A stretch of 64,000 nt of DNA. Source: Clostridia bacterium. GTDB taxonomy: Bacteria; Bacillota; Clostridia; Oscillospirales; Acutalibacteraceae. The first letter of the stretch is position 1. The number at the start of each line of letters is the position of its first letter. A program made the position numbers and the translations under genes. A model generated the notes under the pieces. It saw only the letters and a program-made list of their open reading frames with translations, was not told where the DNA came from and did not search any database. Below are positions 23,904 to 29,059 of the stretch, one piece after another. The DNA lies in NCBI GenBank assembly GCA_017465505.1, contig JAFTWB010000023.1, forward strand, positions 1 through 64,000. Reading direction: 5' to 3'.

Positions 23904-24452
23904 TTATTCTTCACCCAAAAGGGTAACTGATGTGAAGTTGTGATTAAGTGTCGGCAGGATTTTCTCAGTTAAATCGGAAACTTTTATCCTAAGGCTTGCG
24001 GTATTTACGCAGGGGTGACAGCCGAAGTACTCTTCTTTGAGGACATCCTCGTCTATTACAAGCCTGACTTTATTTTCTTTATCATTTATAAGTCCCAAAA
24101 CACTTGCCGAGCCTGGAGAAGTGCCCAGAAGCTCCTGCATTTTCTCAGCTTCGCCGAAGGAAAGCCGGGAAACTCCAAGGGCTTTTGACAGCTCCTTGGT
24201 TTTGAAAACCTTGGTTGAAGGCATCATAAGAAGGTAAAAATCTGTTTTCTGACGATTGGTGAGAAAGAGATTTTTGCAGATTAAAGCCCCCAGACTTTTG
24301 TCGATTTCCTGACAGATTTCCATAGTAAAGGCAGGCTCGTGCTCCAGTCTGAGATACTCAACTTTCAGATTATCAAGAAAAGTATAAACTTCCTTTTCTA
24401 CTTCTGGTCTTGCAGAAAAATCTTCGGGGCTTCCTTTTTTCAGTTCAAGCAT
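23904..24452 (-). CDS. Prolyl-tRNA editing protein (ProX/PrdX type)
   Basis: A 182-residue YbaK/ProX-fold deacylase, which hydrolyses mischarged aminoacyl-tRNA(Pro) in trans. Family landmarks are a conserved Lys in ALICKNLFL, the GTSPGSASVLGLIND loop and GCHPCVNTASLRI near the C-terminus. The length is normal. It lies 2 bp after hydF, at the end of the hydrogenase maturation operon, a context that does not explain its function and is probably only co-transcription. Confidence 0.85.
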   Translation of the reverse strand: MLELKKGSPEDFSARPEVEKEVYTFLDNLKVEYLRLEHEPAFTMEICQEIDKSLGALICKNLFLTNRQKTDFYLLMMPSTKVFKTKELSKALGVSRLSFGEAEKMQELLGTSPGSASVLGLINDKENKVRLVIDEDVLKEEYFGCHPCVNTASLRIKVSDLTEKILPTLNHNFTSVTLLGEE

Positions 24453-24454
24453 TT

Positions 24455-25654
24455 TCAGTCCTCCAGCATAGCGGCAAGGCTTTCGAAGGGAGAAAGACTG
24501 CGTTTTAAAATCCCGTGAATATGGGCAATCAAAACGCCGTAGTTGACAATCGGCACACCTTCTGCCTTGGCTGAATTTATACGGTAAGCCATTTCTCTGC
24601 TATTGAGCATACATCCGCCGCAATGAACAACTAACGCATAGGAGCTTAAATCTTCAGGGAAATCTCCGCCGCTGGTAAATTCAAAAGTAATATCCTTGCC
24701 TGTGTACTCTTTTATCCAGTTGGGAAGCTTCACAGTGCCGATATCGCCACACTGGCGGTGGTGGGTGCACCCCTCGCTGATAAGGACTTTGTCGCCGTCC
24801 TTGAGATTTTTAAGGGTTGAAGCACCCTGCACCAAAGCATTTAAGTCACCCTTGTATCTGGCAAAAAGAATAGAAAATGACGTAAGTGCTATGTCGGCAG
24901 GTACATCCTTTGACACCTTGCCGAAAACCTGAGAGTCAGTTACAACAAGCCTAGGGTTATCTTTGAGATTACAGATTGCAGAGGAAAGCTCTTCAGGCTG
25001 GCACACAAGAGCTGGGCAGTGTAAATCAAGAAGCTCTCTGAGAGTCTGCACCTGTGGAAGAATAAGCCTGCCTTTTGGTGCAGAAGCGTCAATGGGAGTT
25101 ACCAGAATCACGGTATCCCCTTTTTCTACCAAATCAGCAAGGATGTATTTTTCTTTGTCGGAATTATACAGTTTACCTATAAGCTCCCTGAGCTCATTTA
25201 TGTTGATTTTATCCTTTGCACTTACAAGGATTTCGTTGCTTTCCTTGGGTGAAATTTCTGCAAGGTCAAACTTGTTGTAAGCGATAACGTAAGGAATGTT
25301 ACGCTCCTTGAAAAGATTTATGAGTGTGGTATCGTCTTCCCCTATTCCCTTTGCAGAGTCCACGACCAACACAGCAATATCAACTGAAGCGAGGACTTTT
25401 CGGGTTTTTCTCACACGCATTTCTCCAAGGGTGCCTGTATCATCAAAACCCGGAGTATCAATAATAACAACAGGACCCAGAGGAAGAAGCTCCATAGCTT
25501 TCTTGACAGGGTCGGTAGTAGTGCCCAAAACATCGGAAACAATGGAGATTTCCTGATTTGTCACGGCATTTACAAGACTTGACTTGCCTGCATTTCGCAA
25601 ACCAAAAAAGCCGATATGAACACGCTCGGAGCTGGGAGTATTTGTTAAGCTCAT
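24455..25654 (-). CDS. hydF: [FeFe]-hydrogenase maturation GTPase HydF
   Basis: A 399-residue scaffold on which the 2Fe subcluster is assembled before transfer to HydA. The N-terminal GTPase has P-loop GLRNAGKSS (residues 18-26), switch GTTTDP, DTPGFDD and NKFD. The C-terminal part has the cluster ligands, Cys in EGCTHHRQCGD and HCGGCMLNSREM. AAGGATGG precedes the ATG. A 444-bp repeat-filled gap separates it from hydG, so operon continuity is uncertain. Confidence 0.92.
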   Translation of the reverse strand: MSLTNTPSSERVHIGFFGLRNAGKSSLVNAVTNQEISIVSDVLGTTTDPVKKAMELLPLGPVVIIDTPGFDDTGTLGEMRVRKTRKVLASVDIAVLVVDSAKGIGEDDTTLINLFKERNIPYVIAYNKFDLAEISPKESNEILVSAKDKININELRELIGKLYNSDKEKYILADLVEKGDTVILVTPIDASAPKGRLILPQVQTLRELLDLHCPALVCQPEELSSAICNLKDNPRLVVTDSQVFGKVSKDVPADIALTSFSILFARYKGDLNALVQGASTLKNLKDGDKVLISEGCTHHRQCGDIGTVKLPNWIKEYTGKDITFEFTSGGDFPEDLSSYALVVHCGGCMLNSREMAYRINSAKAEGVPIVNYGVLIAHIHGILKRSLSPFESLAAMLED

Positions 25655-26098: not shown

Positions 26099-27547
26099 TC
26101 AGAAGCGGAAGTCACGACGGTTGGAGTTTTTGATGTTTTCGATGTTGTCCTTTGCAATTTCAAGAACCTTGGGATTTGTAATTCCGGAAAGCTCTTTTTC
26201 AATAAGCTTGTAGCCTATCTCCTTGGTTTCATCACTGGCATAATCCACCAGAAACTCGGTGAGAGTCATAAGTGCATTGGGGTGACAGCAGTTAACAATC
26301 TGACCTGACTTACAAAGGCTCATAAAGCGGTCTCCTGTTCTGCCTTCTCGATAACAAGCGGTACAGAAGGAAGGAATGTGGCCGTTTTCCATAAGCCAGC
26401 GTACAACTTCATCCAGAGTTCTCTGGTCAGAAACGTCAAACTGCTCAGTATCGTGGGGACGCTCCTGCTCTGTATAACCGCCAACAGATGTACGAGAAGC
26501 ACCGCTTACCTGAGAAACACCGCAGTTAAGCAGACGTGAGCGAACCTCCTGAGATTCACGGGTGGAAATAATAATACCTGTGTAGGGTACTGCAAGGCGG
26601 ATACAAGCGGTGATTTTTGCAAAGGTGTCGTCGTCAATGCCGTTGTCAAAGCTGTCGGGGTCGATGTTGTTTGCCTTTTTAAGACGAGGAACGCTGATGG
26701 TGTGAGGACCAACACCGTGAACAGCCTCAAGGTGCTCGGCGTGCATAAGAAGTCCTGCAAACTCGTACTTATAAAGCTCAAGGCCGAAAAGTACACCCAA
26801 GCCTACGTCGTCAATTCCGCCTTCCATAGCTCTGTCCATAGCCTCTGTGTGATAAGCATAGTCGTGCTTAGGGCCTGTGGGATGAAGCTGAAGGTAGCTT
26901 TCCTTGTGATAAGTTTCCTGGAAAAGAATGTATGTGCCAATGCCAGCGTCTTTGAGTTTACGATAATTTTCAACTGTGGTTGCGGCGATGTTCACGTTAA
27001 CTCTGCGGATAGCACCGTTTTTATGGTTTACACTGTAAATGGTGTTGATACACTCAAGTATGTACTCAATGGGGTTGTTTTTGGGGTCTTCGCCTGCTTC
27101 AATGGCAAGACGCTTGTGACCCATATCCTGCAATGCAATAACCTCAGCTTTTACTTCCTCCTGAGTAAGCTTGCGTCTGGCTATGTCCTTATTCTTCAAG
27201 TGATAGGGGCAGTATACACAGCCGTTTACGCAATAGTTGGAAAGATAAAGAGGTGCAAACATAACAATACGGTTGCCGTAGAATTTGAGCTTTATATCCT
27301 CGGCAATTCTGAAAATTTCTGCGACCTTCTCCTTATCTTCACAGGCAAGAAGAACAGAAGCCTCTCTGTGAGTAAGGCCTGCACAGACGTAGCCTGTGGC
27401 GGTTTTTTGAGGCTTTGCTTTCTCTAAGATAGAGTCAATAAGCTGAAAGTTATTTTTGTTTTCTTCGGCGTATCTGAGGGTATCAAGGATTTCTGAGTCG
27501 CTGATAAACTCCTCAGCCTTCATAGATTTTACATTGTAGTTGCTCAT
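26099..27547 (-). CDS. hydG: [FeFe]-hydrogenase maturase HydG
   Basis: A 482-residue radical SAM tyrosine lyase that makes the CO and CN ligands of the H-cluster. The radical SAM motif C-x(3)-C-x(2)-C is in CVNGCVYCPYH. The C-terminal auxiliary-cluster ligands are in CTACYREGRTGDRF and VNCCHPNAL. The length is typical. It follows hydE by 21 bp. Its stop codon lies at the edge of a dispersed repeat. Confidence 0.95.
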   Translation of the reverse strand: MSNYNVKSMKAEEFISDSEILDTLRYAEENKNNFQLIDSILEKAKPQKTATGYVCAGLTHREASVLLACEDKEKVAEIFRIAEDIKLKFYGNRIVMFAPLYLSNYCVNGCVYCPYHLKNKDIARRKLTQEEVKAEVIALQDMGHKRLAIEAGEDPKNNPIEYILECINTIYSVNHKNGAIRRVNVNIAATTVENYRKLKDAGIGTYILFQETYHKESYLQLHPTGPKHDYAYHTEAMDRAMEGGIDDVGLGVLFGLELYKYEFAGLLMHAEHLEAVHGVGPHTISVPRLKKANNIDPDSFDNGIDDDTFAKITACIRLAVPYTGIIISTRESQEVRSRLLNCGVSQVSGASRTSVGGYTEQERPHDTEQFDVSDQRTLDEVVRWLMENGHIPSFCTACYREGRTGDRFMSLCKSGQIVNCCHPNALMTLTEFLVDYASDETKEIGYKLIEKELSGITNPKVLEIAKDNIENIKNSNRRDFRF

Positions 27548-27568: not shown

Positions 27569-28612
27569 TTATTTTTTTACATCCCCTCGGCCTACGGTGA
27601 TTTCGTAGCCGATGGCTGATAATGTTCTCTTCAAAGAGCTTAGGCCGTTGGCGGACTCTGCACCTGTGCTCAGCTTATTGTTGTAAAGCTCATATTTCGC
27701 TCGGGTATTTTCAGGCGAAAGGTTAGGCATAACAACATTTGCTCCTGCCAGAATCCCCTTTTCCCTGCCCTGACTCTCGCTGGTGCCTAAAGCTGTGGTT
27801 GCAGGAAGAAGCACAGGGGGATGGATAAGCCTTACAAGAGAAAGAAGAAAGCAGGTAAGCTTTGCACTGCCTGAAGGAAAATCTCTGAAAGGTGTGTCTT
27901 TGTGAGGAATAAAAGGGCCGATACCGCACATATCGGGCTTGAAGGATTCGATAAACTTAAGGTCTTTGGCGATATGCAGTGATGTCTGATAAGGCGAGCC
28001 CACCATAAAACCGCAGCCCACCTGAAAGCCGATTTTGCGAAGATTTGAGAGGCACTCAAGGCGGTTTTCCAAGGTAAGATTTTCAGGATGAAGCTTTGAG
28101 TAATGCTCGCTGTCGGCGGTTTCGTGACGGAGAAGATATCTGTCGGCACCGCTTTCGTAAAGCTTTTTGTAGCTTTCAAAGCTTCTTTCTCCCAGAGAAA
28201 GAGTGACGGCAACATCAGGATACTTTGCTTTAATAGAGCTTACAATATCACAGACAACCTCGTCCGTAAAGTGAGGGTCTTCACCGCCCTGCATAACAAA
28301 GGTGCGAAAGCCCAGACTGTAACCTTTCTCACAGCAGGAAAGGATATCTTCTTTTGTAAGGCGGTATCGGTCTGCAAGCCTATTGGAGCAACGGATACCG
28401 CAATAAAAGCAGTCATTTTTGCAGATATTGGAAATTTCTATAAGCCCACGGATAAAAACGGAGTTTGAGTAAATTTCTTTGCGTTTTTCTACCCCAAGGG
28501 ACTGAGCGAAAGCGATAGATTCATCATTCATATCATCAATGAGAAATTTGTATTCTTCAAGAGAAAGGCTCTGATTTTCGCTGAGCTTTTGAATAAGATT
28601 AAGACTGTTCAC
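27569..28612 (-). CDS. hydE: [FeFe]-hydrogenase maturase HydE
   Basis: A 347-residue radical SAM enzyme that acts in H-cluster assembly, on an iron-cysteine carbonyl-cyanide intermediate. The motif CKNDCFYCGIRC holds the three cluster cysteines. MQGGEDP and LRHETADSEHYSKLHP are typical of the HydE/BioB-like family. Its start overlaps the TM1266-like gene by 14 bp, so translation is coupled. Confidence 0.95.
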   Translation of the reverse strand: MNSLNLIQKLSENQSLSLEEYKFLIDDMNDESIAFAQSLGVEKRKEIYSNSVFIRGLIEISNICKNDCFYCGIRCSNRLADRYRLTKEDILSCCEKGYSLGFRTFVMQGGEDPHFTDEVVCDIVSSIKAKYPDVAVTLSLGERSFESYKKLYESGADRYLLRHETADSEHYSKLHPENLTLENRLECLSNLRKIGFQVGCGFMVGSPYQTSLHIAKDLKFIESFKPDMCGIGPFIPHKDTPFRDFPSGSAKLTCFLLSLVRLIHPPVLLPATTALGTSESQGREKGILAGANVVMPNLSPENTRAKYELYNNKLSTGAESANGLSSLKRTLSAIGYEITVGRGDVKK

Positions 28613-28871
28613 CGCTGATCACCCCCGAATAGGCGGTTTTGATACTAACACCATTGAGCTTGCCGATTTTACCTGAAAGTGAAGAAATATCATTCTGAGG
28701 TGCGTCAACGGCAACGCTGATGATGTTTATATTTTTATCTCTGTAAGGAATTCCCATTCTGCCGATTACAAATTGGCTGAAGGTATGCAAAAGGTCATTA
28801 AGCTCCTTAACAGAGTCGGGATTTTCTACGATTATACTCATTACGGCAACACGGGTTTCCATAATATTCAC
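28599..28871 (-). CDS. TM1266-family hydrogenase-system regulator
   Basis: A 90-residue ACT-like protein (MNIMETRVAVMSIIVENPDS, and ISVAVDAPQNDISSLSGKIG). TM1266-type proteins are commonly found with hydEFG and described as putative regulators of iron-only hydrogenase systems. It is the first gene of the operon, directly behind the structured leader. AAGAGGTGA precedes the ATG. Confidence 0.85.
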   Translation of the reverse strand: MNIMETRVAVMSIIVENPDSVKELNDLLHTFSQFVIGRMGIPYRDKNINIISVAVDAPQNDISSLSGKIGKLNGVSIKTAYSGVISGEQS

Positions 28872-28894: not shown

Positions 28895-29023
28895 ACAAAA
28901 ATAAAAATCGCCATACCCGAAAAGGATATGACGGAAAACAGCATTATAAAGCCATACAAGGTATGGCGGCTTTGTTATGAGATTGCTGTTACCTTTCCGT
29001 CAGAACATTCTTCTTGTCAGGTA
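28895..29023 (-). promoter_or_regulatory. Riboswitch-like attenuator in the hydrogenase-maturation leader
   Basis: A 5' leader of about 150 nt. A long stem pairs TGACGGAAA (29002-28994) with TTTCCGTCA (28937-28929), continues as ACAGCA/TGCTGT after a 4-nt GGTA bulge (order on RNA), and encloses a hairpin GCCATAC-CTT-GTATGGC. The terminator is CGTCATATCC (28933-28924), loop, GGGTATGGCG (28918-28909) and ATTTTTATTTTT. Its 5' arm shares 5 nt with the long stem, so the two folds exclude each other. CGCCATACC (28968-28960) could also sequester the terminator 3' arm. No known riboswitch class is recognised. Confidence 0.7.
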
Positions 29024-29030
29024 CAATTAA

Positions 29031-29059
29031 ATTATAGCACGGAAACGGAAAAATAGCAA
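29031..29059 (-). promoter_or_regulatory. Promoter of the TM1266-hydE-hydG operon
   Basis: TTGCTA (29054-29059), a 17-bp spacer, and TATAAT (29031-29036). It places the start near 29024 and makes the structured leader part of the transcript. Confidence 0.75.

Follow-up and report, generated by a model that had tools for sequence, protein, structure and literature searches.

What governs the [FeFe]-hydrogenase maturation genes of a Clostridia bacterium (GenBank assembly GCA_017465505.1, contig JAFTWB010000023.1), and is the leader in front of them a genuine regulatory RNA with a reader of its own? The window, by which we mean the whole 64,000-nucleotide stretch of DNA that was analysed, carries these genes on its reverse strand. 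An initial annotation had placed the leader before TM1266, hydE, and hydG, an order that profile matches bear out and extend by hydF:

28599..28862, reverse strand: TM1266-family gene, the first of the operon (TIGR03959, 113.4 bits; ATG start assumed)
27569..28612, reverse strand: hydE (TIGR03956, 551.3 bits)
26099..27547, reverse strand: hydG (TIGR03955, 907.7 bits)
24455..25654, reverse strand: hydF (TIGR03918, 571.1 bits)

The first gene is a member of the TM1266 family, catalogued as 'iron-only hydrogenase system putative regulator' (TIGR03959; PF21699, 109 bits; PDB 2nzc, E 8.5e-14), and it has a sub-threshold match to NikR_C. A YbaK/EbsC-like gene (23904-24452; sub-threshold TIGR00011 match) directly follows hydF. 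The leader itself is made up of the following features:

29031..29059, reverse strand: promoter TTGCTA-N17-TATAAT, sigma-70-like, by consensus only (10 of 12 positions)
28990..29023, reverse strand: conserved element of 34 nt, at the predicted 5' end of the RNA and directly 3' of the promoter-like site
29023-29020 with 28990-28993, reverse strand: element helix P1, UACC/GGUA
29019-29017 opposite 28996-28994, reverse strand: element loop at the P1 side, UGA opposite AAA
29016-29013 with 28999-28997, reverse strand: element helix P2, in the window's clade a C-G pair, an A.G mismatch, a bulged A, and a G-C pair
29012-29011 opposite 29002-29000, reverse strand: element loop at the P3 side, AA opposite UGA
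29010 with 29003, reverse strand: element helix P3, the pair G29010-C29003
28984..29001, reverse strand: antiterminator 5' arm, overlapping the element 3' half
28930..28943, reverse strand: antiterminator 3' arm, of which 28933-28930 is common to the terminator 5' arm
28951..28967, reverse strand: internal hairpin GCCAUAC-CUU-GUAUGGC, kept in the five closest leaders aligned
28897..28933, reverse strand: intrinsic terminator, a hairpin at 28933-28909 plus a T-rich tail

The promoter was found as annotated, with the reservation that such sites are about equally common in the real sequence and in shuffles (16 vs 13.8), and a transcript start is predicted near 29024. Between this promoter and the last gene of a pyrimidine operon, which encodes the aspartate carbamoyltransferase regulatory subunit, lies a 13-pair terminator-like hairpin (29104-29073). 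The long bulged stem, the internal hairpin, and the terminator described in the initial annotation could all be located in the leader. The stem consists of 29001-28994 paired with 28930-28937 plus 28989-28984 paired with 28938-28943, and its 3' arm does share 28933-28930 with the terminator 5' arm. A further pairing proposed there, between 28968-28960 and the terminator 3' arm, can form in the window but is not general, being present by eye in three of five sister leaders. That anatomy did not include the conserved element.

The fold of the window leader is more stable than that of shuffled sequences (z -2.59, or z -2.83 without the terminator), and both terminator arms are sequestered in its free minimum-energy fold (-36.0). 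The 3' half of the element has nucleotides in common with the antiterminator 5' arm, so antiterminator and element are mutually exclusive. The mean pair probability of the terminator goes from 0.00 in the free leader to 0.99 with the element held unpaired (i.e. occupied), which upholds the annotated claim of mutually exclusive folds.

The annotation had also recognised no known riboswitch class, and a search of the leader against Rfam 15 (4227 models) likewise gave no family at the curated threshold. Sixteen loci of relatives gave no Rfam match at that threshold, and in a sub-threshold search of the window and 12 relatives no family recurred at the element, so a known riboswitch or other Rfam family is ruled out as its identity. 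No leader RNA for H-cluster maturation genes was found in open-licence full text, a scope outside which lie most subscription journals and a 2017 survey of 224 RNA candidates. Term searches of PMC6429828 and PMC11109978 gave no occurrence, and the passages of PMC3543383 concern an unrelated subject.

The kinship of the leader emerged only once the upstream regions of TM1266 genes from relatives were read, for which homologues were gathered from 133 of 161 genus genomes and from 70 of 150 genomes of a family sample. Whole-leader DNA similarity across 100 genus genomes was strong only in two (G222 and G175, 81-82% identity), weaker matches being at chance level. What these leaders have in common is a core of the form C-UGA-P2-AAA-G...C-UGA-P2'-AAA-G, with a variable loop between the halves. 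Two stretches of 3-4 nt are complementary, so that P2, a covarying helix of 3-4 bp, has the same UGA/AAA internal loop on each side, in mirror order; P1 contributes a C-G pair adjoining its loop, and P3 is short. In an alignment of 18 leaders, gaps are confined to the apical loop, the covariation score is 0.691 vs 0.210 when shuffled, and 97% of P2 cells are paired, the rows having been picked partly for P2 pairing. A structure-fitted alignment of 66 rows (64 distinct) gives 0.566 vs 0.188 with 95% P2 pairing. The annotation had called for a covariation check of the long stem and hairpin; covariation is present in the short 5' element, but the long stem forms the antiterminator and varies from leader to leader with only its complementarity kept. 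Neither a match to a known class nor a lack of covariation among homologous leaders, either of which would have counted against the annotation, was found.

P2 pairing also holds in sequences chosen without using pairing. A structure-blind scan of 84,980 species genomes, whose pattern left P2 free and specified just the unpaired bases together with the flanking C and G, returned at least 128 matches in at least 120 stretches. We counted a match as gene-linked where a match to TM1266, HydE, HydG, HydF, or AspA starts no more than 1.2 kb downstream. Among the matches listed, P2 pairs at three or four of four positions in 23 of the 24 gene-linked ones, as against 24 of the 104 others, for which about 16 would be expected by chance (p 2e-11 for the contrast). 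Five of the 24 paired ones among these others (L236, L237, L261, L303, and L308) have a T run and an apparent ABC transporter gene downstream, in L303 and L308 as judged by eye, and some of the 'other' matches are therefore probably real. Sixteen hydrogenase-linked pattern matches, from the first 80 loci, are in records named Clostridia or clostridial taxa, some of the named taxa being ones that we take to be clostridial.

The window itself is an awkward representative of this group, P2 being degenerate in its clade. Its element scores 19.1 bits against a covariance model trained without the window (R1), and in a scan of its own genome the E-value is 2.06, equal to that of an unrelated site; against a second model (R2) it reaches 36.9 bits, with the window among the training sequences. 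We would nonetheless place it in the class by its conserved loops, its position before TM1266, and its conservation in five sister leaders.

R2 was used for scans of 394 genomes of the order and 391 of the class, which found matches in 33 and 44 genomes, respectively, the window's genome included. These counts are lower bounds, since the filters were strict and few candidates were scored, and since R2 misses some variants with a long P3 (such as L015, L017, L090, and L113). Outside the window there are 77 distinct places, 76 of which were examined (four of them in the R2 training set), and in 67 of the 76 a match to TM1266, hydE, hydG, or hydF starts within 500 nt downstream. The remaining nine include two aspA operons (L176 and L205, the latter with hydF after aspA), a GNAT gene followed by hydG (L145), and a gene for an NMT1-like binding protein (L189). 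Three more of the nine (L161, L170, and L208) run to the contig edge, and the last two (L180 and L204) are chance matches within open reading frames. A further scan match, L388, also looks like coding sequence. A scan of 159 genomes of the phylum added G1100, where the order runs from TM1266 through the element to a FecCD-like permease, and one apparent chance match.

The genes that follow the element extend beyond H-cluster maturation. Aspartate ammonia-lyase genes are preceded by it in four loci (L176, L205, L246, and L302), L246 being from Acetobacterium wieringae. Non-hydrogenase operons with the element often begin with TM1266, as in TM1266-FecCD operons (L136, Pfam-tested; L142, L148, and L155, by resemblance) and in an operon of TM1266 and an NMT1 binding protein (L159). 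An element with a T run or terminator stands before SsuA/NMT1-type ABC importer-like genes in L236, L237, L261, L303, L308, and L189. One locus (L350, in G730) has the element, TM1266, and a small membrane protein without Pfam match, and then NuoE/NuoF-type and [FeFe]-hydrogenase-like genes, the resemblance of these last genes having been judged by eye. Tandem copies of the element occur in L003, L008, L025, L062, and L064, and also in L391, L392, and L401.

One rival explanation is that of an ordinary terminator leader without any sensing element, in which the conservation would be promoter-proximal sequence kept by descent. Such a leader would fit the terminator-like hairpins found downstream in 108 of 133 leaders, as well as the weak P2 of the window. 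It is contradicted by the covariation, by the structure-blind scan, and by recurrence of the element before hydG and in transporter operons, and we give it practically no weight. That the leader is a real, conserved cis-regulatory RNA we regard as close to certain.

How the element might act is suggested by two layouts. Before TM1266, the element 3' half is complementary to the 5' arm and loop of the same leader's terminator. Across the 108 leaders with a terminator-like hairpin, the antiterminator duplex has a mean of -12.8 kcal/mol with a leader's own partner vs -9.3 when partners are permuted, the best of 60 permutations reaching -10.1. Before hydG, in 14 rows that represent 12 distinct places, the element runs up to or into a purine-rich ribosome-binding site, with the start codon within about 8-21 nt. 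Since the 3' half also serves as one strand of the antiterminator in the one layout and the element abuts the ribosome-binding site in the other, a bound element would mean OFF in both, and we judge it likely that occupancy of the element turns the genes off. In such a scheme, an occupied element would have its 3' half barred from the antiterminator, shutting the genes off through termination (or through masking of the ribosome site), and an empty element would let the antiterminator form and transcription continue into TM1266-hydE-hydG.

The attenuator proposed in the initial annotation is in this sense supported, with a terminator, an antiterminator that excludes it, and membership of the leader in a widespread class. 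Equilibrium switching was rejected as a general proof of the mechanism, as in most leaders the terminator forms with or without occupancy of the element: the mean terminator probability over the 108 leaders is 0.74 free vs 0.87 occupied, and the shift on occupancy exceeds 0.3 in only 17. Because most leaders would terminate at equilibrium either way, control would be mostly kinetic, by folding during transcription, if the model is right.

The remaining question is what occupies the element. The main rival to a protein reader is a small-molecule riboswitch, in which the two UGA/AAA loops would bind a ligand directly with the same OFF logic, the ligand being perhaps a maturation intermediate or by-product, tyrosine, cysteine or another amino acid, a SAM product, iron, or an importer's compound. 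TM1266 would then simply be the gene most often regulated, and might also sense that ligand itself. The compact conserved core, the tandem arrangement in several leaders, and the occurrence of both terminator and ribosome-site platforms all speak for it, as does the set of targets, which includes both biosynthesis and transport genes, a mixture that is common for riboswitches. Against it, the conserved positions are few and form a mirror repeat, and no ligand obviously fits all targets. Moreover, of 34 HydG-positive genomes without TM1266, only 2 showed the element near hydG, which a riboswitch alone would leave unexplained. We consider direct ligand binding by the RNA quite possible, at somewhat less than even chances.

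The alternative, which the initial annotation had raised as one possibility, is that TM1266 itself reads the element. TM1266 is present in 40 of the 42 element-bearing genomes of the class vs a background of 240 of 391. Two element-bearing genomes lack it, G689 (97% complete) and G863 (93%). Where the element is not directly before TM1266 (18 genomes), TM1266 is found in 16, in 12 of these on another contig or far away; as it is common among HydG-positive genomes (in the family sample, 63 of 69 carry it), this proportion is not above background. R2 at E <= 0.1 found the element around TM1266 in 12 of 20 TM1266-positive class genomes vs, around hydG in HydG-positive genomes lacking TM1266, 2 of 28 in the class and 0 of 6 in the window's family (p 2e-4 and 2e-5, kinship ignored), the search in genomes lacking TM1266 having spanned only about 1.5 kb around hydG. 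The 20 regions were roughly every second entry of a score-sorted list, which passed over two known bearers (G854 and G825) and took in four others (G679, G747, G1018, and G989). Elements visible by eye in L395, L399, and L404 were missed by R2 and are not among the 12. The region searched in G089 (L334) is only 318 nt, so that its lack of an element carries little weight. In the strict genome scans, restricted to HydG-positive genomes, the corresponding figures of 40 of 240 vs 2 of 28 do not differ significantly (p 0.27, kinship ignored).

The protein itself is small, at about 87 residues, and its own family match covers nearly the whole length, which leaves no room for a DNA-binding domain. 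It also has a weak match to the NikR C-terminal domain; the label 'ACT/NikR-C-like' that we use for it is based on that sub-threshold Pfam match, its fold being putatively akin to ACT/NikR-C domains. Two ABC ATPases, in FecCD operons from regions with element matches (L354 and L355), have a TM1266-like domain as their C-terminal part (36-38% identity; E-values 9e-18 and 8e-20), and this fusion suggests that TM1266 is a ligand-sensing domain. L354 (in G399) also encodes a NifH-like protein, and in L355 (in G645) a full HydE (557 bits) is encoded alongside a NifE/D-like protein, a clustering of nitrogenase-like, FecCD, and HydE/TM1266 genes.

Weighing the mixed co-occurrence figures, the TM1266-led operons, the ATPase fusions, and the suggestion of ligand sensing, we somewhat favour binding of the element by the TM1266 protein over direct binding of a ligand by the RNA. 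Another RNA-binding protein or a small RNA would also be compatible with the sequence evidence; nothing specific in the genes covered here points there, and we think it improbable. With TM1266 as the reader, the occupant would be a small, ligand-gated, sensor-like domain, a less certain step of the model, which as a symmetric oligomer might bind the two mirror-image loops, and the outcome would be autogenous feedback on H-cluster assembly. Taken jointly, that the leader belongs to a new class of cis-regulatory RNA serving a TM1266 and H-cluster maturation regulon, that it acts as an OFF switch, and that TM1266 reads it, is a reading to which we assign a probability of roughly 0.55. More tentatively, and at slightly under even odds, we hypothesize that TM1266 is the founding member of a family of ligand-gated RNA-binding regulators built on a small ACT/NikR-C-like domain, whose symmetric oligomer reads a mirror-symmetric element and makes transcription and translation of its targets, the H-cluster maturation genes as well as FecCD-type and NMT1-type importers, depend on how much of an H-cluster building block is present.

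Elements of this proposal have counterparts in known systems. TRAP on trp leaders and PyrR on pyr leaders are protein-read attenuators, and here too occupancy of a leader element would pick between antiterminator and terminator under control that can be autogenous; the element is a different one, however, and the candidate protein, proposed from sequence, has a different fold. The guanidine-II riboswitch is composed of two similar hairpins, and riboswitches of that type resemble the present class in a small repeated or symmetric core, in tandem copies, and in the use of both platform types, but, unlike metabolite riboswitches, the window element matches no Rfam model. In MetN, an ACT-type sensor domain is fused to an ABC ATPase, much as a TM1266-like domain is in the two ATPases above; the difference is that the TM1266-like domain exists as a separate protein, too, next to a leader RNA. 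With respect to the TM1266 family itself, what is new is the RNA target proposed here.

In the open-licence literature searched, no description was found of control at the RNA level over how cells supply the [FeFe]-hydrogenase active site. The presence of the element before TM1266, hydE, hydG, hydF, and aspA across many families would make a feedback signal in H-cluster assembly directly testable, and it would give the 'putative regulator' TM1266 a concrete candidate target. The element would, moreover, link H-cluster assembly to specific importers. If it senses a small molecule, it would constitute a new riboswitch class, and if TM1266 reads it, TM1266 would represent a new type of RNA-binding regulator.
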